Shown in pieces: positions 48,329-61,892 of a DNA stretch of 64,000 nt. The DNA comes from Anaerococcus mediterraneensis. Its GTDB lineage: Bacteria; Bacillota; Clostridia; Tissierellales; Peptoniphilaceae. The notes beneath the pieces were generated by a model that saw nothing but the letters and a program-made list of their open reading frames with translations, was not told the DNA's origin and searched no databases. Each line of letters opens with the position of its first letter. Within the stretch, counting starts at the first letter, position 1. A program made the position numbers and the translations under genes. The stretch spans positions 434,001 through 498,000 of the forward strand of contig NZ_LT635772.1 of the NCBI RefSeq assembly GCF_900128415.1, given 5' to 3'.

Positions 48329-50149
48329 CTATTCTACAGTTACAGACTTGGCTAGGTTTCTAGGCTTATCTACATTTAGTCCCTTGAGTAAGGATGTATA
48401 GTAGGCTATAAGCTGGCAAGGGATTATTGATAATACTGGGGCTAAAATCTCGCTTGTCCCCTCGTAGATAAAGGCCCTGCCATGGTCTTTTATCCTAGGA
48501 TCATCTATTTGGCTTATGATATAGGCGCCAGCTTTTCTGGCTAGGACTTCTTCTATATTGGCTAGGGATTTTTCCAAAAGATTTTTTTGGGTCACTATAG
48601 CTATAACCGGCGTCTGATCTTCTATTAGGGCAATAGTCCCGTGTTTGAGCTCTCCTGCCGCAAAGGCCTCTGTATGGATATAGGATATCTCTTTTAGCTT
48701 TAGACTAGCTTCTAGGCCACTGTAGTAGTCAATACCACGAGCTAGGTAAAATAGATGGTCATGGTCCTTAATATCCTTTGCAATAAACCTTAGCTCATCT
48801 TTCCTTCCTATGATTTTTTCTATTTTTTCTGGCAAGCTTTCTATATCCCTAATGATTTTCTCCGATTCTTCTGGGGAAATCTTACCTAGGATATTTCCAA
48901 ATTCTAAGAGCAAAAAGTATAGGTTGATAAGCTGGCTTGTGTAGGCCTTTGTAGATGCTACAGCTATCTCTGGTCCAGCCTGGCAGTAGATTGTCTTATC
49001 TGCCTGCCTGTCTATAGATGATTCTGCTACATTGGTGATGGCAAGAGTTTTTGCCCCCAATTTTTGGGCAAGCCTTAGGGCTTTGAGTGTATCAGCTGTC
49101 TCTCCTGACTGGGAAAGAGCGATCACTAGGCTATTTTCTCCAACAAGGGGTTCAGCATACCTAAACTCTGATGCAAGCTCCACCCTAACAGGGATCCTTA
49201 GAAGTTTTTCAAAGATATATTTTCCGATTAGACCTGCATGGTAGGCTGTTCCACAAGCTATAATATAAATATTATCTAGATTTTCTATTTCATTTTTTTC
49301 ATAATTGTATTTTTTTAGTCTATGGGTGTTTTTATCTACATTGTAGGAAAAAAGTTTTTCTATGACACCTGCCTGCTCTTCTATTTCCTTTAGCATAAAA
49401 TGGTCATAGGATTTTTTACTGGAGTCTTCTTTCTCGTAGGATATTTCTTGGATTAGACCCTGGATTTTTTCCATATCTTTACCATAAATCTGGTAATGAT
49501 CTCCCTTTATATCTACAATTTGGTCATTGTCTATATAGATTACTTTTTTTGTATATTTTACAAAAGAAGGGCTATCAGATGCTAGGATAAAACCATCATC
49601 CATGATCCCCAATACCAAAGGCGAATCTTTTCTAATGGCAACTAACCTGTCTGGCTCATCGGCACAGATTATACCTAGGGCGTAGGCACCCCTTATCTTT
49701 CCCTTGACTATTTTTAGGGCCTCTAAGATATCGCCCTTGTAGTATTTTTCAAGCATGACTGCAAGGACTTCTGTATCAGTCTGAGATTTGAAAGAATAAC
49801 CTTCTTTTATGAGCTCTTCTTTTAGGTCCTTATAATTTTCTATTATCCCATTGTGGACAAGGGCAATTTTGCCATTATTTGACATATGGGGATGGGAGTT
49901 TGTCTTGTTGGCCTGGCCGTGTGTTGCCCACCTGATATGGCCTATGCCAAGATGAGATGAAAGATCCACACCCTCAAGACTTTTCTCTAAGTTGTCAAGT
50001 CCTCCCTTTTCCTTGTAGACTTCTATACCTCTTTCTTTCATAAGACCTATGCCGCTAGAGTCATAGCCCCTATATTCTAGTTTTTCTAGGCCGTCAAGGA
50101 TAATATCCGACGCTTGTTTTTTGCCTTTATAACATACTATTCCGCACAT
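48329..50149 (-). CDS. glmS: Glutamine-fructose-6-phosphate aminotransferase (isomerizing)
   Basis: 606 residues. Class II glutaminase domain with catalytic Cys2 (MCGIVCYKG) and KLEYRGYDSSGIG; two SIS sugar-isomerase domains (ACGTAYHAGLIGKY, LSQSGETADT, STKAYTSQL); the C-terminal AKSVTVE is the family end. It makes glucosamine-6-phosphate for cell wall synthesis. A glmS ribozyme upstream allows feedback by this product. Confidence 0.97.
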   Translation of the reverse strand: MCGIVCYKGKKQASDIILDGLEKLEYRGYDSSGIGLMKERGIEVYKEKGGLDNLEKSLEGVDLSSHLGIGHIRWATHGQANKTNSHPHMSNNGKIALVHNGIIENYKDLKEELIKEGYSFKSQTDTEVLAVMLEKYYKGDILEALKIVKGKIRGAYALGIICADEPDRLVAIRKDSPLVLGIMDDGFILASDSPSFVKYTKKVIYIDNDQIVDIKGDHYQIYGKDMEKIQGLIQEISYEKEDSSKKSYDHFMLKEIEEQAGVIEKLFSYNVDKNTHRLKKYNYEKNEIENLDNIYIIACGTAYHAGLIGKYIFEKLLRIPVRVELASEFRYAEPLVGENSLVIALSQSGETADTLKALRLAQKLGAKTLAITNVAESSIDRQADKTIYCQAGPEIAVASTKAYTSQLINLYFLLLEFGNILGKISPEESEKIIRDIESLPEKIEKIIGRKDELRFIAKDIKDHDHLFYLARGIDYYSGLEASLKLKEISYIHTEAFAAGELKHGTIALIEDQTPVIAIVTQKNLLEKSLANIEEVLARKAGAYIISQIDDPRIKDHGRAFIYEGTSEILAPVLSIIPCQLIAYYTSLLKGLNVDKPRNLAKSVTVE

Positions 50150-50171: not shown

Positions 50172-50306
50172 TGAGGTACACTGTGTTTTCTCTGTGACAG
50201 AGATTGCTCTCTGCTTTTGTCTAACACTAAGGCTGTGAACCTAGGCAGCTCCCGCCGAATTTTCGATAACTGCCTTCCTCGTCATCCCAAGGGGATCTGG
50301 CGCTCC
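50172..50306 (-). ncRNA. glmS ribozyme
   Basis: The minus strand between promoter and glmS reads GGAGCGCCAG, then GACGAGG, TTATCGAAAATTCGGCGGGAG and a P3-P4-like tail: the order and conserved bases of the glmS ribozyme core. Cleavage is expected between A50304 and G50303 (A|GCGCC). It self-cleaves on binding glucosamine-6-phosphate, which lowers glmS mRNA. The 3' boundary is approximate. Confidence 0.88.
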
Positions 50307-50329
50307 TTTATTTTTTACCTCATCCTAAT

Positions 50330-50386: not shown

Positions 50387-50572
50387 CATAAAATATGCTA
50401 TCAAAAATATTGGTGCTAGAAGTAAGAGTACAAAGGGCATGAAGACTCTCATGGCCGCCAAAAACATGGCTAGCCTGTCGCCTTTTTCTAGGTTGTCCCT
50501 ATCTAGGAGGTCTTCTTTTTCTTCGATTTCCTCCCTAGTTTTTCCCTTAAATCTATCTATTGGTCTTTTCAT
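50384..50572 (-). CDS. Small membrane protein at the end of the opp operon
   Basis: 62 residues. The first 38 are charged and helical (KTREEIEEKEDLLDRDNLEKGDR). They are followed by a hydrophobic end with one or two membrane spans (AMRVFMPFVLLLLAPIFLIAYFM). The ATG overlaps the oppF stop (TGATG-type), and the gene ends in the operon terminator, so it is a genuine last gene. No family recognised. It may be a transporter accessory peptide. Confidence 0.8.
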   Translation of the reverse strand: MKRPIDRFKGKTREEIEEKEDLLDRDNLEKGDRLAMFLAAMRVFMPFVLLLLAPIFLIAYFM

Positions 50573-52185
50573 ATAGCTGATATTTCTTCTAATTCCTGGG
50601 CTTCTTTAGCTCTTTGTGCCATATTTTTCTCATAAGCTTTTTGTTTTTCTTCTTCTGAGACGTCCATCAAATGGCAAGCAACAAAGTGGCCTTGGCCCTG
50701 GTCTTTAAGCTCTGGCTCAAAGTTGGCACAGATATCCATAGCGTATTCGCACCTTGTGTGGAACCTACATCCCTTTGGAGGTTTAACAGCTGATGGTATA
50801 TCACCTTCTATAACCTGAAGCTCTTGGCCTTGGTCTACGTCTGTTCTTGGTATAGCTGATAAAAGAGCCTTTGTATAAGGGTGAAGAGGATTTTCAAAAA
50901 TCTTTTCACTATCTGCAAGCTCTACCATTACTCCCAAATACATTACCCCTATCCTATCAGAAATATATTTAACTACTGAAAGGTCGTGGGTTATAAATAG
51001 GTAGGTAAGGTTGTTAGCTTCTTTTAGGTCCTGAAGTAGGTTTATAATCTGAGATTGGATTGATACGTCAAGAGCTGATACAGCCTCATCACAAACTATA
51101 AAGCTTGGTTTTAGGGCAAGGGCCCTAGCTATACCTATCCTTTGTCTTTGACCACCTGAGAATTGGTGAGGATACCTATGAAGGAAATATGGAGCAAGTC
51201 CACATTTTTCCATAGTTTCTTGGATGTATTCGTTGTATCCTTCTTCTTTTCTTGATTTGAAAAGATTGTGGCCCAATACACCCTCGCCGATAATATTACC
51301 TACAGTCATCTTTGTATCAAGTGATCCATATGGATCTTGGAAGATCATCTGCAAGTCCTTGCGCAGCTGTCTCATCTCCTCAGCTGTAAGCTCTGATAAG
51401 TCAACTCCCATATCAAGCTGGGATTCTAATTCTGCGAATTTTTCCTTATCTCTTAGGCTAGCCCTATACTCATCTATAATAGCTGATTTTTCATCAACTC
51501 TTTGAGTCATTGCATCCCTTTTGTCGGTTAATTCTTTATATTTTGGATCATTATCGAGATTTTCGTAATATTCATCCCAAGTCCTGGCTCTCATCATGAC
51601 TTTTTGTTCAAATTCTTCGATTTGACCTAAGACTTTGGACCTTTCTTTTAGGACTTGGTATTTATCCTTCAAAAGTTTTGATACCTTGTCTAAATCATCA
51701 CTTGCTAAAAGACCACCTGCTATCCTAACCATGTTTAGGTAGTTTTCTTCGATCTCACGACGTTTAAACATAGCTCTTTCGTTTTGCATAGCCCTATCTT
51801 CATCTGTACTAGCTTTTTCCAGATCAGCGTAGATGCCATTTAGCTCTTCGAGCTCTTTGTGATAATTTGGGAATTTTGATGGGATTTTGCCAATCATATC
51901 CCCCATATATTCAGGAGCTAATTCCTCTATAGTCTTGCCATAGTATAGGGTTGTTCCCTCTGTTTGCTCATATATTTGTAAAAGTGTTCTACCGAAGGTT
52001 GATTTTCCACAACCAGACTCACCAACTAGACCTAGGGTTTCGCCCTCATATATATCTATAGATATAGACTCATTAGCGTGGACGTATTCGCCAGGTCCCT
52101 TGTCAAATATACTTTTTTTCTTGAGAGGGAAATATTTTTTGAGGTTTCTTATCTTGAATAAGACCTTCTTTTCTTTATTTTCCAT
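50569..52185 (-). CDS. oppF: Oligopeptide ABC transporter ATP-binding protein OppF with long helical insertion
   Basis: 538 residues against about 310-330 for OppF. Walker A GESGCGKST (about 55-63), then TLLQIYEQTEGTTLYYGK. The usual short link to the Q-loop is replaced by about 170 mostly helical, charged residues (about 90-260). The normal sequence resumes with TAEEMRQLRKDLQMIFQDPYGSLD, signature FSGGQRQRIGIARAL, Walker B FIVCDEAVSALDVS and a C-terminal cysteine-containing peptide-transporter domain. The insert lies in the helical/peripheral region of the ATPase. Coupled to OppD by an 11-base overlap. Confidence 0.92.
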   Translation of the reverse strand: MENKEKKVLFKIRNLKKYFPLKKKSIFDKGPGEYVHANESISIDIYEGETLGLVGESGCGKSTFGRTLLQIYEQTEGTTLYYGKTIEELAPEYMGDMIGKIPSKFPNYHKELEELNGIYADLEKASTDEDRAMQNERAMFKRREIEENYLNMVRIAGGLLASDDLDKVSKLLKDKYQVLKERSKVLGQIEEFEQKVMMRARTWDEYYENLDNDPKYKELTDKRDAMTQRVDEKSAIIDEYRASLRDKEKFAELESQLDMGVDLSELTAEEMRQLRKDLQMIFQDPYGSLDTKMTVGNIIGEGVLGHNLFKSRKEEGYNEYIQETMEKCGLAPYFLHRYPHQFSGGQRQRIGIARALALKPSFIVCDEAVSALDVSIQSQIINLLQDLKEANNLTYLFITHDLSVVKYISDRIGVMYLGVMVELADSEKIFENPLHPYTKALLSAIPRTDVDQGQELQVIEGDIPSAVKPPKGCRFHTRCEYAMDICANFEPELKDQGQGHFVACHLMDVSEEEKQKAYEKNMAQRAKEAQELEEISAI

Positions 52186-53173
52186 CTTCTCTTTCCTTTC
52201 TATTTGGATAGTGACATCTGATCAATTGGTGCTCACTCACCCTTTGCAAGTCAGGCATTTGCTTTACACATTTTTCTGTTGCATACTTACATCTGTCTGC
52301 AAACTTGCAGCCTTCTGGCAAATTTAGTGGGTGTGGTACAGATCCTGGTATTATATCTAGCCTTTGGTTCCTATCTGATGTTATAGATGGGATAGAATTT
52401 AAAAGGGCAACTGTATATGGGTGGTTGTAATCTGTGATATCTCTTTTGAATATAAACTCAACAGGAGATTGCTCTACGATTTGGCCACAATACATAACTG
52501 CTACCTCATCTGCCATCTGGTTTATAACACCAAGGTCATGGGTGATAAATAGGATTGATGTGCCAGCCTTGTGCTTTAGATCATTCATCAGTCTAAGTAT
52601 TTGTGCTTGGATTGTAACGTCAAGTGCTGTAGTTGGCTCATCAGCTATAAGTAGCTTTGGCTCACAAGCAAGAGCCATAGCTATCATAACTCTTTGGTTC
52701 ATACCACCGGATAATTCAAACGGATATTGTTTGGCAACTACATGTGGGTTAGGGATCTTGACTGCTGCAAGAAGCTCCTCAACCCTAGCTTGTCCTTCTT
52801 TTTTATCCATATTTTTATGAAGCATCAAAACTTCGAGTATTTGTTTTTCCACAGTAAAAACTGGGTTTAGGGAGCTCATTGGCTCTTGGAAGATCATAGA
52901 GATCTTGTTGCCTCTGATATGCTCCATTTGGCTAGTGTTATATTCTGAGATTTTTTCCCCATCGAAGATTATCTCACCACCATATATTTTTTGGTTGGAC
53001 TCAAACAGCTGGAGGATACTCATAGCTGTTTGGCTCTTTCCAGAACCAGACTCACCTACAAGGCCCAGGGTCTTACCTGCGTCAACTGATAAAGAAACGT
53101 CATTAACGGCCTTGATTAGTCCACGTCTTGTAGAAAAGTAGGTATGAAGATTTTTTATTTCTAATAAACTCAT
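52175..53173 (-). CDS. oppD: Oligopeptide ABC transporter ATP-binding protein OppD
   Basis: 332 residues, normal length. Walker A GESGSGKSQT, FQEPMSSLNPVFTV Q-loop, signature LSGGMNQRVMIAMAL, Walker B LLIADEPTTALDVT, H-loop FITHDLGVINQM; the C-terminal CKFADRCKYATEKC is the cysteine-rich segment of peptide/nickel ATPases. Unlike OppF it has no insertion. Located between oppC and oppF. Confidence 0.96.
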   Translation of the reverse strand: MSLLEIKNLHTYFSTRRGLIKAVNDVSLSVDAGKTLGLVGESGSGKSQTAMSILQLFESNQKIYGGEIIFDGEKISEYNTSQMEHIRGNKISMIFQEPMSSLNPVFTVEKQILEVLMLHKNMDKKEGQARVEELLAAVKIPNPHVVAKQYPFELSGGMNQRVMIAMALACEPKLLIADEPTTALDVTIQAQILRLMNDLKHKAGTSILFITHDLGVINQMADEVAVMYCGQIVEQSPVEFIFKRDITDYNHPYTVALLNSIPSITSDRNQRLDIIPGSVPHPLNLPEGCKFADRCKYATEKCVKQMPDLQRVSEHQLIRCHYPNRKEREDGK

Positions 53174-53181
53174 AAAATCAC

Positions 53182-55131
53182 CTATCTCTCATTTGCTCTT
53201 GGGTCTATAGCATCTCTTAGGGCATCGCCTATGAGGTTGACTGAAAATGATGTCAAGAATACTGCAAGGGCTGGGAATACCCATCTCCACCAGTAGGTAT
53301 TTAGTACATCTGATGATTGGGCAGCTGTTAGCATATTACCCCAAGATGGTGTTGGCTCTTGGACACCAAAACCTAAGAATGAAAGTCCACTTTCAGTTAG
53401 GAGGTTGCCCGCATAACCTATTGTCGCATTTACTATAACAATAGATAAAACATTTGGTAGGATATGTTTGACCATAATAGACCAGTTTTTAACCCCTAGA
53501 GCCTTGGCCGCTGTTATATAGTCTCTCTCACGTTCTGCAAGGATCTGTCCACGTACCAAACGGGCTAGACCTGTCCATCCTAGTACACCCAAGAGGATCA
53601 TAACCATGGTTATCCTTTGTTCTTGGCTTGCTCCTGGTGGGAGTAGAGCTGATAGGGAAATAAGCATTGGATAGAATGGGAATGATGCAACGATCTCTGA
53701 TATTCTCATAAGAACATTGTCTACCTTGCCACCAACAAAACCAGAAACCATACCTATTATAACACCAAGTCCAATTTGGATGATTGATGAAATAAGGGAA
53801 ATGATCATGGTCATCTTGCCGCCGTGGATAAGTCTTGTAAAGATATCACGACCTTGGTCATCTGAACCAAACCTAAATCCGTTTAGTCCCCATGTTTCTA
53901 TTTTTCCATCTTTATCTACTGCATAATTGTTGAAATAATTTGCATATACTTGGTTAAATTCTCCATCTGGAGTTTTTAGCTCTCCATAATTATCCTTACC
54001 CCATTGGTAAAGTTTGCCATTTTCATCTAGGGCTGTTATTACAGAGTTACCTGCTTCTACATCGACAATCTTGCCTTCAAATTCTGGCACATTATCTCCT
54101 GCTAGCTTATCTCTTGATGGGCCCCAAACATAAAGCTTGCCATCTTCTGATAAGGCTGCTGCAGAGTTTTCTGTTAGAACTGCTTTTTTGACTTTTACAG
54201 ACCCATCCCTAAGCTCAGCTGGCATAGTAGTATCATTTTCAGCCCCTCTAACACCAAGTAGGTCTATAGATCCGTCTTTTTTGACAGCTATGACGTTGAT
54301 GGTGTTTGCATCAAAATCTACTATCTGACCTTGGAGTTTTGATGGGATCATATCAAGCCTAGAAGCTAGAGTAGAACCCCAAACGATAATATTGTTTGCA
54401 TTTGTAAGGACGACAGAATATTGGGTACCAGCACCTATTTTTTTGATGCCTTCTTTTTTGATTTGGGCAGCCTGCATACCAGGCACCTTTGTTTGGTCAA
54501 AGGCCTTGTTACCCCAACCATAAATTTCGTCATCTTCTGTAGCTATGATTATATGTCTATCACCGGCAGCTACGTCTTTTATCTTTTTACCTTCTATTTT
54601 TTCTTTTACATTTTTTGGGATGTCCAAAACCTTATCTTCATTGTCAGATCCCCAAACATAAAGTTTACCTTCATCGCTTAGACCAACTGAGAAAGTATTT
54701 CCTATAGATATTTTTTTGACACCCTCTTTTTCCAAATCTTTTGGAAAGTTCATGTAGGCACCACCCGGCGCTACGTTTGTGAGGTTACCTTGTGAATAGT
54801 ATTGGTCAAAAGGAAGCATTCTAGATCCCACAAAAATAAGTAAGACTATAGCTATGAACATAACTAGGCCTATAACACCTAGTGGGTTTCTAAAATAGTT
54901 TCTAAGGGCTACCTTGCCAGGAGACATGATAGCTTCTTCTTTTAGCCTATCATTTTCTGGACTTTCTTGTGGTCCGCCTTCTAAATTGGCATTGAGGTCA
55001 TTATTTGGTCCTTCAGATTCTGGACTTGGTATATCATCTTCCATACCATTTGCAAAAGTAAATCCTCTTAGAAAATATGTCTTCAAAAAACCTAGATAAG
55101 ATTTAAATGGTTTATTTAATTTTCTATTCAT
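53182..55131 (-). CDS. oppC: Oligopeptide ABC transporter permease OppC with inserted RCC1-like beta-propeller
   Basis: 649 residues against about 300 for OppC. The acidic 70-residue N-terminus and TM1 (about 84-104) are followed by about 290 residues (125-417) before the standard OppC sequence resumes at FGSDDQGRDIFTRLIHG. The insert holds seven repeats of about 44 residues with the RCC1 pattern (DGKLYVWGx): turns near residues 150-161, 195-207, 240-252, 280-293, 325-337, 366-378 and 402-415. Seven repeats equal the blade number of an RCC1 propeller. It lies in the external TM1-TM2 loop. The C-terminal part has the EAA segment ITAAKALGVKNWSIMVKHILPN. The frame is continuous. Confidence 0.93.
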   Translation of the reverse strand: MNRKLNKPFKSYLGFLKTYFLRGFTFANGMEDDIPSPESEGPNNDLNANLEGGPQESPENDRLKEEAIMSPGKVALRNYFRNPLGVIGLVMFIAIVLLIFVGSRMLPFDQYYSQGNLTNVAPGGAYMNFPKDLEKEGVKKISIGNTFSVGLSDEGKLYVWGSDNEDKVLDIPKNVKEKIEGKKIKDVAAGDRHIIIATEDDEIYGWGNKAFDQTKVPGMQAAQIKKEGIKKIGAGTQYSVVLTNANNIIVWGSTLASRLDMIPSKLQGQIVDFDANTINVIAVKKDGSIDLLGVRGAENDTTMPAELRDGSVKVKKAVLTENSAAALSEDGKLYVWGPSRDKLAGDNVPEFEGKIVDVEAGNSVITALDENGKLYQWGKDNYGELKTPDGEFNQVYANYFNNYAVDKDGKIETWGLNGFRFGSDDQGRDIFTRLIHGGKMTMIISLISSIIQIGLGVIIGMVSGFVGGKVDNVLMRISEIVASFPFYPMLISLSALLPPGASQEQRITMVMILLGVLGWTGLARLVRGQILAERERDYITAAKALGVKNWSIMVKHILPNVLSIVIVNATIGYAGNLLTESGLSFLGFGVQEPTPSWGNMLTAAQSSDVLNTYWWRWVFPALAVFLTSFSVNLIGDALRDAIDPRANER

Positions 55132-55132
55132 A

Positions 55133-56095
55133 TTAAGCCTCCAATTGTACTCTTGGATCTACTAGGGCGTAGGCCACATCCATTAGCAGGTTGCCAAGTA
55201 GGGTAAGGATAGCATAAAACATTGATAAAGCGAGGATTACATTGTAGTCCTGGGCCATAACTGCTGTTATAAGCTCGTTACCAATTCCCCTATAAGAGAA
55301 GATACGTTCAGTTATAGCTGAACCTGAGAACATTCCCAAAACTGCCCAAGTAAGCGCTGTTACTACTGGTATAAGTGCATTTCTAAAGGCATGGGAGTAG
55401 ACAACTGTTTTTTCTTTTAGACCCTTTGACCTAGCTGTTCTGATATAATCTTGGTCAAGAGCATCTAGCATAGAGTTTCTAACATACCTAGATAAGCTCG
55501 CCAAAGATCCAACCGTCAAAGTTAGGGTTGGTAGAGTCAAATATCTAACCCATTGGCCAAAGGTATTTTCCTTAGGCATACCATTTGCTGGTAACCATTT
55601 AAGTTTAAAGGCTATAGCAAAAATCAAAAACAATCCTATAAAGAATGTTGGTATTGATAATCCGACCAGAGTCAAAGTCTGGGCCGTCTTGTCATAAATA
55701 CCTCCCTTGTGGGTGGCCGATCTTATACCTATCATAACCGACAAAACAAAAGAAAGTATTGTAGAACCTAAGTTTAGATAAACTGTATTTTTAAGAGGCT
55801 CTTTTAGGTATTCTTTTACTGGTCTTCTAACTCTAGTAGACTCACCAAAATCTCCCTTTAGAGTCCTACCTAGCCATCTAACATATTGTTCAGGCCATGG
55901 TTTATCATATCCATATCTTGCTTGTAGGTTCTTATACATCTCTTCTTGTTGTGCTTTTGTGATCCTACCTGTTGTTGGGATCATAGCCTGGATTGGGTCA
56001 CCTGGCATGGCCTTTGAAAAGGCAAAAAGCATAATAGATATAATAAGAGCTACTGGGATTAAGTTTAAAATTCTCTTTACTATATAACGTAACAT
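55133..56095 (-). CDS. oppB: Oligopeptide ABC transporter permease OppB
   Basis: 320 residues. MLRYIVKRILNLIPV start, PGDPIQAMIPTTGRIT and RYGYDKPWPEQYVRWLG typical of the external loop of peptide permeases; late EAA segment TARSKGLKEKTVVYSHAFRNALIPV. It begins the operon oppB-C-D-F plus the 62-residue gene, and has no large insertion. Confidence 0.95.
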   Translation of the reverse strand: MLRYIVKRILNLIPVALIISIMLFAFSKAMPGDPIQAMIPTTGRITKAQQEEMYKNLQARYGYDKPWPEQYVRWLGRTLKGDFGESTRVRRPVKEYLKEPLKNTVYLNLGSTILSFVLSVMIGIRSATHKGGIYDKTAQTLTLVGLSIPTFFIGLFLIFAIAFKLKWLPANGMPKENTFGQWVRYLTLPTLTLTVGSLASLSRYVRNSMLDALDQDYIRTARSKGLKEKTVVYSHAFRNALIPVVTALTWAVLGMFSGSAITERIFSYRGIGNELITAVMAQDYNVILALSMFYAILTLLGNLLMDVAYALVDPRVQLEA

Positions 56096-56532: not shown

Positions 56533-59500
56533 ATGAGAAAAAGACACAAAATAGCCATCTGCCTGGCTCTATCAGGTGTGATTTTGGCAAATGCAAAGAT
56601 AGAAAGACAGATAGGTCAAAATAATTTTAACCAAGTAGCCTTTGCTGATAGCCCTAGTCTGATAAAGGGATCTAGGGGTGGGTACGCAACAAATACAATT
56701 ATTTTAGACCACGAATTTATAAAGAATATAAAAAGTGTAGAGGTTAACAATAAAACCTGGAACGAAGACTCTGACAATAACAGACCAAATAAAAGGGGAG
56801 TCTATTACCTATCCACATTAGAAAATGGCGATGAATTTTCTATAGTTTTCACTAAATTGGAGAAAGATGACAGAATAGTCATAAAATCAGATAAAAAGAT
56901 CTTATCTTTTACAATAAGTGAGCCTACAGATCAATGGAATGATAATCTAATAGATAAAAATTCTATCAAAGAAGAAAACATAGGGGCAGAAAAAGAAGAT
57001 CCGCAAGAAAAAGATACTCCACCAAAAAATGAAGAAAAAAAATACATACTTTCATCAGAAGGTGGTTTTTTAAACAGTACAGTTAGACTTGATACAGACT
57101 TTGTAAATTCAATTAAGGACGTAGAAGTAAATGGCCAAACCTACAAAGAAACTTCTAATTCAAGGCCATCAAAAGGTCAAGTTTACTATTTAATCAAAGG
57201 AATGGACGGTCCTAACCAAGATGGTATTAGATTCCCAATGTTAAATGAAGGTGCTAGGGTTACAATAAAAAATGACAAAGTAGCTCTTTCTTTTACTATA
57301 GTTAACCCTACTGGCTCTGGTGAAATCATAAAAAAAGATTCTATTTTAGTTGAGCCACTTTCAAAGGCTCCTTCCAAAAAAGAAGACCCTAGTAGTGGTG
57401 AAGATGTTTCGCCTAAGGAAGTATCCTTTACTTATGTGTCAGAATCATTCGGATATAACATATTAAAACTTACTAGTGGTGAAAAACTCGATAAGAAAAA
57501 ATTAGAAAAAATCACTTTAAATGGCAAGGAACAAACCAAGGTAGATTACCCAATAAGTATTTCTGGCAATGGTAACTATGCCTTTTCTAGCGATGGTGAA
57601 CTTTGTATCGAAAGACTACATGACAATGATTCGCTTTCCGTTACCTATGATGGAAAAGAATACAAGTACATCTACAAGGATAAAAAACTCATAGAAAATA
57701 CGGACAAAAAAGATGTGACCTACCAAATAAGACTGGTTGGCAAATTTGATAGCCTTTTAGTAGGCCAGACAAAGTTAGATGGTTTTTCTTGCGGTACCGC
57801 CTCAGTTTCAAACAATCCTAATGCTGTATCCGTAGAGTACACAGACAAAGAAAATCCTAGCAAGGATGATTGGAAAAAACTAGAAGACAGGGGCAATGAA
57901 TTTAATGAAGTCAAAGCTGTTGTTGTAGATAAAGATACAGGTATAGAAGCAAACTTCGCCCATGGTTCTATAATCCTTGGCGGAAGCCCAACAAAGACAG
58001 GTACTTTCAAAATAAAAATAATTGCCGAAGATAAACGTGGTCAAAAAGTAGAGTCTAATGAAGCTGATGTAGAAGTTTATAATCTCGGAGAAAAAAGCCT
58101 AGAAGAACTCATGGTCAAAGATAGGTTCATACAGACCCAAGATAAAAAATACATGTGGGAAATGAGTCCATGGAAAATCACAAAATTCAATGACTCAGAC
58201 AATATTGTAAATGTGCCAAAAGACCTCAAGGCATGGTTTGGATCTCACGAATCTGGCACCTATGGAGAGTTAGGTTTTGAGACCATTGATGAGCCAACAC
58301 AAACCCTAGTTGTAGGCCAGGGAGCCAACCTCACCTTCAAAAATATGAAAATCCTGGGATCTGTAAAAATAATTGTAAAAGACGGCGGCATCCTAAACCT
58401 AGATGACTCTGTAGTCTTTGGCAAGATCGAAGTTTCTAATGGCGGAAAACTAAATGTAAACTACAGCCCTTACACAAAACAAATCACAAGCGGGGCTTCT
58501 ATTTGGGGTCAAGTTATCCTAAAAGACGGGGCTATACTTGGCACCTCCTCAATCTACTCAAACACAAACTACGCTGCCCAAGGCGAAATAGTCAATACAA
58601 ATGACAAGCCAGTCATAAAAGTAGAAGGTAATGCACAAATACAAGGCGACGTCTATATCAGAGGAGATGAACAAGCAACAAAGGGTAAATCTGGTCAGCC
58701 AGCCCTAGAAGTGGGCCCAAATGGAAACCTAGAAATAACAGAAAACTCATCCCTAAACCTATTTGGCGGCGGTGTATACGCTCTCACATCTGTTGGTGGT
58801 GACGCTCTAAAGCTTAATGGTGGAACTGTGACCGGCAAGGGCAAACTCGTAGCTATAGGCGGATCTGGCCAAGGCAAAAAAGGTGGATCTGGCATATCAG
58901 GTCATGGTTCTATATCTGTAGGCACCGCTTATATCAGAGGCGGCAATAGCTCAAAAAATCCTGCCAAGGCAGTAGAATCTGACAAGATAAATTTCAAAGG
59001 CACAAAAGGTATTACAATTGACGGCAAAAAAACTACAAATACTGACCCAATTATCCCAGAAGACTACTGGGATGGAACCAAAAAAATTTCTGATGATAAA
59101 GTAGCTAGGATCAACAAGGCAATAGAAGAAAATAAGGATAAGCTTATTCAAGCAGGGAAAACTGAAAATAATAAAAAGGAAGAAAAGCCTGCTAAGGATG
59201 ATAAAAACAAAGAAAATCCACCAAGGGAAAATAAACCAGAAAAAAAACCATCAGAAGATAATAAAAATAAAGATTTAAATAAGAAAAATAAAGATAGTGG
59301 ATACTTAGATAAACTCTATTTTTCTAGTCAAATACCTAAGACCAGCCTAGAAAAATACAAAAAACTAAAAGAGGCCTACGAAAAACTATCACGCACCGAA
59401 GATGCAGCCAAACTTTTGATGGACAAATTCCCTGAAACAATAAAACCTGTTAGAAAAGATTTGGAAAAACTCATAGAAAAATCTCAAAAATTGAGAATTA

Positions 59501-59547
59501 TAGCAGAAAAAAGACTAAAAGCCATGGAAAAAGACCTCGGCCTATAA
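56533..59547 (+). CDS. Large secreted surface protein with three N-terminal repeats and beta-helix-like core
   Basis: 1004 residues. The signal region is at 1-40 (KIAICLALSGVILANA, VAFADS). Three repeats of about 85-110 residues follow (cores VEVNNKTWNE, VEVNGQTYKE, ITLNGKEQTK, each closing with a beta-rich IVIKSDK-like strand). They resemble DUF1533/hemoglobin-interacting repeats. Residues about 590-800 are glycine- and asparagine-rich short repeats of beta-helix type (GGILNLDD, GGKLNV, LNGGTVTGKG). Then come a K/E/N/P-rich linker and a helical C-terminus. No LPXTG is seen, so it is secreted or loosely bound. The Fur box suggests iron or heme acquisition or host binding. Confidence 0.8.
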   Translation: MRKRHKIAICLALSGVILANAKIERQIGQNNFNQVAFADSPSLIKGSRGGYATNTIILDHEFIKNIKSVEVNNKTWNEDSDNNRPNKRGVYYLSTLENGDEFSIVFTKLEKDDRIVIKSDKKILSFTISEPTDQWNDNLIDKNSIKEENIGAEKEDPQEKDTPPKNEEKKYILSSEGGFLNSTVRLDTDFVNSIKDVEVNGQTYKETSNSRPSKGQVYYLIKGMDGPNQDGIRFPMLNEGARVTIKNDKVALSFTIVNPTGSGEIIKKDSILVEPLSKAPSKKEDPSSGEDVSPKEVSFTYVSESFGYNILKLTSGEKLDKKKLEKITLNGKEQTKVDYPISISGNGNYAFSSDGELCIERLHDNDSLSVTYDGKEYKYIYKDKKLIENTDKKDVTYQIRLVGKFDSLLVGQTKLDGFSCGTASVSNNPNAVSVEYTDKENPSKDDWKKLEDRGNEFNEVKAVVVDKDTGIEANFAHGSIILGGSPTKTGTFKIKIIAEDKRGQKVESNEADVEVYNLGEKSLEELMVKDRFIQTQDKKYMWEMSPWKITKFNDSDNIVNVPKDLKAWFGSHESGTYGELGFETIDEPTQTLVVGQGANLTFKNMKILGSVKIIVKDGGILNLDDSVVFGKIEVSNGGKLNVNYSPYTKQITSGASIWGQVILKDGAILGTSSIYSNTNYAAQGEIVNTNDKPVIKVEGNAQIQGDVYIRGDEQATKGKSGQPALEVGPNGNLEITENSSLNLFGGGVYALTSVGGDALKLNGGTVTGKGKLVAIGGSGQGKKGGSGISGHGSISVGTAYIRGGNSSKNPAKAVESDKINFKGTKGITIDGKKTTNTDPIIPEDYWDGTKKISDDKVARINKAIEENKDKLIQAGKTENNKKEEKPAKDDKNKENPPRENKPEKKPSEDNKNKDLNKKNKDSGYLDKLYFSSQIPKTSLEKYKKLKEAYEKLSRTEDAAKLLMDKFPETIKPVRKDLEKLIEKSQKLRIIAEKRLKAMEKDLGL

Positions 59548-59687: not shown

Positions 59688-61892
59688 TTATTTTTCAAGG
59701 CTCATAGCATTGATTTGATATTCAGATTCCCAAACTGGTGTGTTTATATCAAAGCCTTTAACTCTCTTAGAGTAACCTGTGTGATATTGGTTAGAGTAAA
59801 GTGGGATTTCTGGTAGGTAGTCATTGTACCACATCTCGAATTTTTCCCATTGGTCTAGGTAGCCTTCTTTGTCGTCTGAATCTGTTTGACGAAGTTTAAC
59901 TGTGATCTCATCTACAGCAGGATCGTTTGTTCTTGTAGTGTTGTTAGATCCTTTTGAGTTGTATTGGTACCATGGGTCAAATGGTGTACCAAAGTTAGAT
60001 CCCATGTTGAATGCTGTATATTCTGCATCTTCTTTTGGGAAATAGTAGTAGTCAAGAAGTGTTGCAAACGAACCAGCTGTTACGTTATATTCCATACCAA
60101 CTTGTTTAGCATTTACTGGAACTTGGTTTGAAATAAGGGTTGTAATTGGAGATTCATCAGAACCGTATTGGTTAACTACTAGTTTTTTACCTGTTTCATC
60201 ATATCTGTAATAATCAAATCCATCTGCGTTTTTAGCAAATTCTTCATCAGCTTTTGCCTTATCCCATGGAGTTTTACCATCTTTTTCAAATTTATATGGA
60301 GTTTTGTCAAGTAGGGCATTTGCTTCATCTAGGTTTAGAGTATATTTCTTGAACTCTGGATTAGCTTCTAGGTCTGCTCCTCTTTCTTTGTACATCCATT
60401 GGCTTGTACCGTACATACCGTTTGTTACTACACCGTAGCCACCTGCAAATGATTGTACGAAGCTGTTTCTATCCATTAGGTAAGCGATAGCTTGTCTTAC
60501 TTCTTTGAATTTTGTAGCTCCCCTATCTGTTAGGAATGTTACGTTACCATAACCATTTCTTTCGTAGGTGTTGTAGCCACCGATTTTGCCTTCGTCAGCT
60601 GCTGCTCTGATTTGGTCTATCTTTGGACCTTCAGATTCGCCTTCCCAAAGGTCGATATCGCCATTTTCTAATAGGTCAACTGCGATTTTTTGGTTAACAG
60701 TTTGTAAAATTACATTTTTAATTGTAGCTTTTTCGCCCTTGAAGTTGCCTGCGTAGTTTTCATTTAGGCTTAGTTTGATCATGTTGTTTGCAAATGAATC
60801 AAATTTATATGGACCTGCCACTACTGATGGGTTAAGTCTATATTCGTTGAACTCTCTTTGCATAGCTTCTTCTATAAGCATGCTTGTTGGGTCAACATCG
60901 CCTGTCTTACGGCTTTCAAGATCAGCGATCTTTTCGTCATGTGCTTTTTTAGCTTCTTCATAAGCTTTTTTCTCATCTTCTTTTGCATCAGCAGCTGGCT
61001 CTGGATTGTTTTCTGCGAAATCTTCTTTAGCCTTTGCTATTTGAGCGTCGATGTTTTCGATGTATTTCTTCTTTTCTTCTTCTGTTGGTTTATAGCCATC
61101 TTTTGCTACTATCTTGTTACCTTCTGGAGCTACAGCTAGGTTTTCAGATACAGCGTGGATTGGGTATGGTCCATATCCCTTTAGGGCTGCAGATTCGTAG
61201 TATGGTAAAAATGATGCGTCTACTGTGATCTTGAATGTGTAGTCATCTACTTTTGCTATACCATCAAATGTATCTTTGTCTCCATTTTTGTATGCTTCAT
61301 ATCCCATTAGTGGGTCATCACCGATTGATGTTGATCCAGTAACTAGTTGGTAAGAAGGATATGTGTGAAGTAGTGAACCAAATACGTAGTTATCTGCGTT
61401 GATTGGTGTACCATCAGACCATTTTAGGTCTTTTTTGATTGTAAATGTTGTTGTTTCTGATCCATCTTCATTTTTAACTGTTTCTGGTTCTTTTTCAAGA
61501 ACTGTCATGTTGTTAACCCATTGACCTGTTTCATCTTGAACTACAGTTGAGTAACCGTTGTTACCCTCTATACCCATATATCTACGAGCTTTTACGTCTG
61601 TTTGATTGTTTGTCCAACCTTGGATAAAGTCTCCGTTGATTTCACCAACACCTACTACAAGGGTATCATCAGATGTTTGTTTGTCGAAGTTTTCTACTTC
61701 TGCTTTATCGGCACCTTCTTCACCCTCAGCAGCATCATCTGCTTGGTCTTTTTTTTCAGTGCTTTCTTCTGCTGGAGCGTCTTTGCTTTTATCAGCAGCG
61801 TCATCTTTTTTGTCTGTGTCTCCACCACAAGCAGCAAGTGTAGCCACAAGGCCAAGTGCCATTAGTGATGAAAATACTTTCTTCATTTTCAT
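59688..61892 (-). CDS. oppA: Oligopeptide-binding lipoprotein OppA, copy 1, with helical insertion
   Basis: 734 residues against about 540-600 for OppA. Signal KVFSSLMALGLVATLAAC with Cys at 21, then an acidic linker of about 50 residues. The family-5 solute-binding domain has TTFTIKKDLKWSDGTPINADNYVF, VRQAIAYLMDR and PYKF segments. An insertion at about 268-335 is very rich in K, E, A and D (YIENIDAQIAKAKEDF, EEAKKAHDEKIADLES) and predicted to be a long helix pair. GGGGGA lies seven bases before the ATG. Promoter TTGACA-N17-TAAAAT at 61964-61936. Feeds peptides to OppBCDF. Confidence 0.93.
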   Translation of the reverse strand: MKMKKVFSSLMALGLVATLAACGGDTDKKDDAADKSKDAPAEESTEKKDQADDAAEGEEGADKAEVENFDKQTSDDTLVVGVGEINGDFIQGWTNNQTDVKARRYMGIEGNNGYSTVVQDETGQWVNNMTVLEKEPETVKNEDGSETTTFTIKKDLKWSDGTPINADNYVFGSLLHTYPSYQLVTGSTSIGDDPLMGYEAYKNGDKDTFDGIAKVDDYTFKITVDASFLPYYESAALKGYGPYPIHAVSENLAVAPEGNKIVAKDGYKPTEEEKKKYIENIDAQIAKAKEDFAENNPEPAADAKEDEKKAYEEAKKAHDEKIADLESRKTGDVDPTSMLIEEAMQREFNEYRLNPSVVAGPYKFDSFANNMIKLSLNENYAGNFKGEKATIKNVILQTVNQKIAVDLLENGDIDLWEGESEGPKIDQIRAAADEGKIGGYNTYERNGYGNVTFLTDRGATKFKEVRQAIAYLMDRNSFVQSFAGGYGVVTNGMYGTSQWMYKERGADLEANPEFKKYTLNLDEANALLDKTPYKFEKDGKTPWDKAKADEEFAKNADGFDYYRYDETGKKLVVNQYGSDESPITTLISNQVPVNAKQVGMEYNVTAGSFATLLDYYYFPKEDAEYTAFNMGSNFGTPFDPWYQYNSKGSNNTTRTNDPAVDEITVKLRQTDSDDKEGYLDQWEKFEMWYNDYLPEIPLYSNQYHTGYSKRVKGFDINTPVWESEYQINAMSLEK

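Follow-up and report, generated by a model that had tools for sequence, protein, structure and literature searches.

What does a large beta-propeller do in the probable outer loop of a peptide importer permease? Peptide importers are well studied and follow a fixed subunit plan, and the question is raised by an oppC gene of Anaerococcus mediterraneensis located at positions 53182–55131 (minus strand) of a 64,000 nucleotides long stretch of contig NZ_LT635772.1 (positions 434,001 to 498,000 of the contig). This stretch is referred to here as the window; all coordinates are window positions and lie on the minus strand unless stated otherwise. The gene encodes a protein of 649 amino acids with a propeller of the RCC1/BLIP-II type. 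The initial annotation of this DNA had claimed an intact frame, and the open reading frame (ORF) is indeed uninterrupted; it is coded on the minus strand, which that annotation left unsaid, and the plus-strand frame over the same interval is full of stops. Pfam scan places the protein in the OppC family, with OppC_N at residues 70–114 (34.2 bits, cut-off 23.9) and BPD_transp_1 at residues 456–646 (111 bits) both above the Pfam cut-offs, and oppB, oppD, oppF and an oppA, the gene set of a peptide importer, are all present at the locus. An AlphaFold2 model built from a 29-row alignment (mean predicted local distance difference test score (pLDDT) 81.3) confirms the DppC/OppC membrane fold, covering 282 of the 282 residues of 8z1w_B with a root-mean-square deviation of 2.0. 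The best NCBIfam profile is Opp4C (NF045476, E 3.3e-91, in two stretches); the score of 305.4 bits is below the equivalog cut-off of 350, and the protein is therefore not filed as a strict Opp4C.

Because of the RCC1 profile scores and the seven strand triplets seen in the predicted structure, we regard the insert as a seven-bladed propeller, well past chance. RCC1_2 (PF13540) matches five stretches of OppC (E 5.9e-32, 109 bits, Pfam cut-off 22) and RCC1 (PF00415) scores 28 bits (cut-off 21.7), whereas the RLD profile (PF25390) reaches 128.7 bits, under its gathering score of 150. In the model, ten-residue block pLDDT averages range from 76 to 95 over residues 131–420 (53872–54741), and the triplets lie within residues 138–161 (blade 1, 54649–54720), 184–207 (blade 2, 54511–54582), 229–252 (blade 3, 54376–54447), 270–292 (blade 4, 54256–54324, the least conserved of all blades), 314–336 (blade 5, 54124–54192), 355–378 (blade 6, 53998–54069) and 392–415 (blade 7, 53887–53958). 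The predicted blades close into a ring, and BLIP-II can be superposed on it over 255 residues at 2.0 Å. The initial annotation had placed seven repeats of the RCC1 kind between the first transmembrane helix (TM1) and a conserved segment, and had proposed a structure prediction and an RCC1 profile search; both agree with it. Phmmer also matches OppC to HERC2 (5.4e-19), and in a divergent set of relatives (A4) the RCC1_2 and RCC1 models match 26 of 26 members (E up to 0.01). Search of the source genome with PF13540 gave four matches, all within the oppC ORF, and none in the 14 control genomes; with PF00415 nothing was matched in the source genome or in the controls, a result which is uninformative on other RCC1 proteins.

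Alignment with plain OppCs places the propeller in the loop between TM1 and TM2. The N-terminal tail (residues 1–70, 54922–55131) is poorly modelled, mostly with pLDDT below 50. It is followed by TM1 (residues 83–105, 54817–54885, from model secondary structure, within the OppC_N match) and by a linker (residues 106–130, 54742–54816) in which N119, P122 and P130 are well conserved. Blade 7 leads directly into the GSDDQGRD motif (residues 422–429, 53845–53868), where ordinary OppC sequence resumes and where the GSDDQGRDIFTRLIHG segment begins, at residue 422. The permease core (residues 430–649, 53185–53844) comprises TM2–TM6, with an EAA-type loop around residues 541–547. In 27 of 30 OppCs without a loop domain a P[STGDAE] dipeptide stands at most 13 residues before the GTDxxGRD-type motif; it is absent in 54 of 55 propeller OppCs, in which blade 7 abuts the motif. 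A linker pattern N-x-x-P, present in 24 of the 55, is too position-bound to serve as a marker. The passages on E. coli DppABCDF in PMC12136057 describe the TM1–TM2 regions of DppB and DppC as periplasmic and different from each other, DppB and DppC as capped by DppA, a scoop in the loop after DppB TM1 as occupying the DppA cleft, and DppC as the partner of DppF. Since the OppC model matches the DppC fold, this published DppC topology (PMC12136057) would put the propeller, by homology, outside the membrane, presumably beside OppA and on the half served by OppF. It would there occupy the pseudo-symmetric counterpart of the OppB scoop.

The same architecture occurs well beyond the source genome. 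In the source family, Peptoniphilaceae, matches that extend over both propeller and permease were found in 44 of 130 genomes, among them 31 of 31 genomes of the same genus, and 10 of 39 genera of the family are represented (counted from rows). Wider draws contain it too: among 391 genomes from the class it occurs in 17, which belong to 9 family groups, and among 398 from the phylum in 14, adding 4 family groups that lie outside the class. Two genomes are shared by these draws; restriction to the genus is thus rejected. Named relatives (26 loci) comprise Anaerococcus species and metagenome-assembled genomes (MAGs) labelled Peptoniphilaceae, Oscillospiraceae, Christensenellaceae, Clostridia, Clostridiales and Eubacteriales. 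A protein search with OppC returned 503 matches, many of them metagenomic; all 120 of those listed share the architecture, and those with a source name are almost without exception called 'ABC transporter permease subunit'. This breadth across genomes and metagenomes bears out the real in-frame fusion claimed in the initial annotation and leads us to reject an assembly artefact or chance fusion, whose probability we consider negligible. By its sequence distribution the propeller OppC is a real and conserved type of importer subunit, whose proteins are already in databases.

A tree of the permease core, from which the propeller was excluded, joins 54 of 54 propeller OppCs in one clade (Shimodaira–Hasegawa-like approximate likelihood ratio support 99) with a single change. 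Among its 103 rows the source OppC is not included; its close relatives L001, L002 and L009 are. Rows were labelled as propeller by locus set and length, with RCC1 matches checked for 26 and the remaining rows assigned by alignment. Loci L015, L017 and L157 were dropped and the short loci L027–L056 and L077–L134 were unused, many of the latter range being fetched anew with longer flanks and then used. In five loci (L142, L149, L150, L161 and L162) the motif comes late; because of N-terminal extensions or doubtful starts these were placed by hand among those without a loop insert. By eye, the OppCs of L142, L149 and L150 have long extra N-terminal hydrophobic segments and no loop insert. Peptoniphilaceae loci fall in two separate subclades, L057–L064 with the genus and L065–L068 elsewhere, which suggests operon transfer or an old duplication. 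One genome of the genus (G020) has two propeller oppC copies, L048 and L076, the second 67% identical to the source OppC; the 16-kb stretch analysed for L076 showed no oppF.

The propeller is not the only large domain in this loop. Nineteen other OppCs (440–657 aa; L135–L141, L143–L148 and L151–L156), with close relatives including Youngiibacter, Herbinix and Lachnoclostridium phytofermentans, likewise have a long TM1–TM2 insert, which lacks any Pfam family and accounts for two changes in the tree; perhaps they are not of one lineage. By eye the insert looks repeat-like. Alignment A3 comprises 22 OppCs, 14 of them with the other insert, and RCC1 models matched none. A search with one such protein scored at least 7999 candidates, and the 120 matches listed (536–611 aa) have no RCC1 among their Pfam domains. 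Unlike in the propeller OppCs, the insert lies upstream of the P[STGDAE] dipeptide, which all 19 retain, and it must therefore have entered the loop at a different point. On these separate entry points, read from sequence, the TM1–TM2 loop of OppC took up large domains more than once.

A second departure is found in the ATPase OppF (538 aa, 50569–52185), in which a long insert separates Walker A from the Q-loop. Four long helices are predicted within residues 92–243 (51457–51912, block pLDDT 63–97); the core of the nucleotide-binding domain is poor in the model (mean pLDDT 68.6), and the 50 Foldseek matches listed are all ATP-binding cassette (ABC) ATPases. Measured in 51 of the 54 propeller loci, the gap between Walker A and the Q-loop is at least 100 residues in 50 of them. 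Without a propeller it is 42–48 in each of the 40 loci measured and never reaches 100, neither in the 17 measured of the 19 other-insert loci, whose OppF is plain (gap 42–44), nor in the 23 measured of the remaining 30. As for the three unmeasured propeller loci, no OppF was seen in the stretch covered for L076 and L174, and in L180 a break in the insert region divides OppF between two ORFs (101 and 375 aa), the insert being partly present. As judged from these gaps, propeller and long OppF insert are near-strictly associated, and the association is conserved.

The binding protein itself appears to have been rearranged in part of the clade. Of the 50 propeller loci whose OppA reaches 500 aa or more, 38, the source locus included, show the ordinary arrangement in a profile search for domain order. 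In the other 12, which all belong to one subclade of the permease tree, the C-terminal segment (around the PLYSN motif) precedes most of the N-lobe, within residues 86–237, and the search gave no further copy of it at the end of these proteins. OppA thus appears to be naturally circularly permuted upstream of propeller oppC in these loci (L013, L014, L018–L025, L164 and L169). An earlier, stricter motif scan had classed 28 of 52 propeller OppAs (6 permuted, 22 normal). Among 32 loci without a propeller, OppA is ordinary in 9 and the C-terminal segment went undetected in 23. Long OppA was rejected as a marker of the propeller, as lengths overlap (598–866 aa in propeller loci with uncut OppA, 551–958 aa elsewhere).

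We tentatively favour the reading that the propeller is a docking or guiding platform for OppA, which we rate at a little below an even chance. The protein is the OppC of a peptide importer powered by ATP (oppA, then oppBCDF). Its propeller would bind membrane-tethered OppA and keep it over the pore, perhaps along with the peptide that OppA has released. OppF is the ATPase expected as partner of OppC, and its insert might help to couple or regulate that half. Co-variation gives a weak indication, from sequence comparison, that OppA and OppB are the propeller's partners. The set comprised 43 loci (11 of the 54 propeller loci omitted for incomplete genes, the source locus added, no further filter), and mean pairwise identity is 0.355 for the propeller, 0.373 for OppA and 0.599 for the permease core, so that propeller and OppA evolve at a similar rate, faster than the core. 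After the permease, OppD and OppF-core background was regressed out, OppA–propeller had the highest residual-distance correlation of ten pairs (0.57) and came first in 390 of 400 taxon bootstraps. When the 11 loci with permuted OppA were removed, the three highest pairs in the remaining 32 were OppA–OppB (0.52), a known contact which serves as positive control, OppA–propeller (0.47) and propeller–OppB (0.39).

Several observations weigh against a specific pairing of this kind. Among the 32 loci OppA–propeller is the top pair in only 60 of 400 bootstraps and OppA–OppB in 278, and among the 19 loci nearest the source OppA–propeller falls to 0.11, the highest pair being OppF insert–OppC TM1 (0.71). 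When OppA was compared with propeller, OppB, OppF insert and OppC TM1 in four partial Mantel tests, 0 of 2000 permutations were as high in each, and the propeller is therefore not singled out. The pairs are not independent, and extracytoplasmic parts may just share a fast rate, which makes the co-variation non-specific. As for OppF, the propeller OppCs form one clade and its insert's association with the propeller thus amounts in effect to one or few events; locus L023 keeps the propeller with a gap of only 62, almost without insert, so that the two are separable. Its sister in the tree, L019, has a reduced insert (gap 144), and the insert was therefore probably trimmed in both.

A more far-reaching version, which we consider rather unlikely, is that an undescribed importer lineage has been rebuilt as a set, the propeller being a second, scoop-opposed docking and gating organ for OppA, the four-helix OppF insert reading or relaying its state inside the cell, and one sublineage having permuted OppA and so moved the lipid tether to suit the docking geometry. 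It is unlikely that the propeller is an extra substrate-binding domain which captures peptides or a peptide-bearing partner and feeds the pore or passes them to OppA: propeller loci with enough sequence upstream of oppB retain an OppA gene (exceptions such as L064 and L168 end at the contig end), and conservation within the propeller is strongest at positions that mainly serve the fold (W, G and H of the blade signature), with no conserved pocket-like motif seen by sequence. Anaerococcus is host-associated, and the presumed outside location of the propeller and its evolution, faster than that of the permease, would fit binding of some other surface partner (cell wall, envelope protein, peptidase or host protein) that places the importer near food. 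We nevertheless find this quite unlikely, as Pfam scan of OppC detects no wall-binding domain, and genus-wide presence together with occurrence in deer, sheep and yak gut MAGs of other families makes a single host target improbable.

The unrelated insert in the same loop of other OppCs raises the possibility that bulk matters rather than a specific fold, and that the propeller has been retained for stability, as a passive spacer or a shield covering the pore on the OppC side. Against this, propeller identity is as low as 0.21 between the two most distant members, yet the RCC1 models still match all 26 divergent members scanned, which argues that the fold itself has been kept; we judge a mere spacer improbable. 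Finally, BLIP-II is the closest solved structure, and a role as inhibitor of beta-lactamase-like or other secreted enzymes might be imagined. The propeller is anchored within a permease rather than secreted, identity is 26%, and fold likeness shows no function, so that we regard such a role as very improbable.

Docking of OppA remains the reading we prefer. The oppD gene (332 aa) lies at 52175–53173 and oppB (320 aa) at 55133–56095, with Opp4B as best NCBIfam profile, under its cut-off (300 of 450 bits). The oppA gene, encoding a 734 aa substrate-binding protein of ordinary domain order with a lipobox-like LAAC seen by eye, is located at 59688–61892 and is parted from oppB by an opposite-strand gene (56533–59547, plus strand), whose 1004 aa product looks surface-protein-like by eye and matches no Pfam family at E up to 0.1. 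In L001, for instance, the distance from oppA to the downstream oppB is about 320 bp. Tandem OppA-type genes precede oppB in other loci, three in L002, L003 and L006 (the first one cut by the locus end) and two in L008–L011, and one translocator may therefore serve several binding proteins. Elsewhere in the window a glmS ribozyme (RF00234, Rfam, 83 bits) lies at 50172–50315, upstream of a gene at 48329–50149 that is glmS-like by eye. A promoter-like scan was uninformative (45 found, 40.3 expected).

A stable lineage with a protein-binding type of propeller in the probable outer loop of the permease and a paired ATPase insert would offer a natural test of OppA-type docking and of how docking is passed on to ATP hydrolysis, and the repeated gain of large domains in this loop should aid annotation. 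In the open-licence literature we found no description of the OppC–propeller combination, whose parts were already known, and nothing on a naturally circularly permuted oligopeptide-binding protein. The propeller has its repeat family in common with eukaryotic RCC1, HERC2 and UVR8. RCC1 is a Ran exchange factor that binds chromatin, and there is no reason to expect such a role in a bacterial permease. BLIP-II is a free, secreted beta-lactamase inhibitory protein whose function is not comparable. Among known importers, the Opp4C profile has 278 positions and no propeller, and the matched OppC/DppC chains of E. coli DppBCDF and OppBCDF and of M. tuberculosis OppABCD and DppABCD are 273–289 residues long, leaving no room for one. 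Likewise, the E. coli DppF and OppF chains have 322–328 residues, compared with 538 in the OppF described here.
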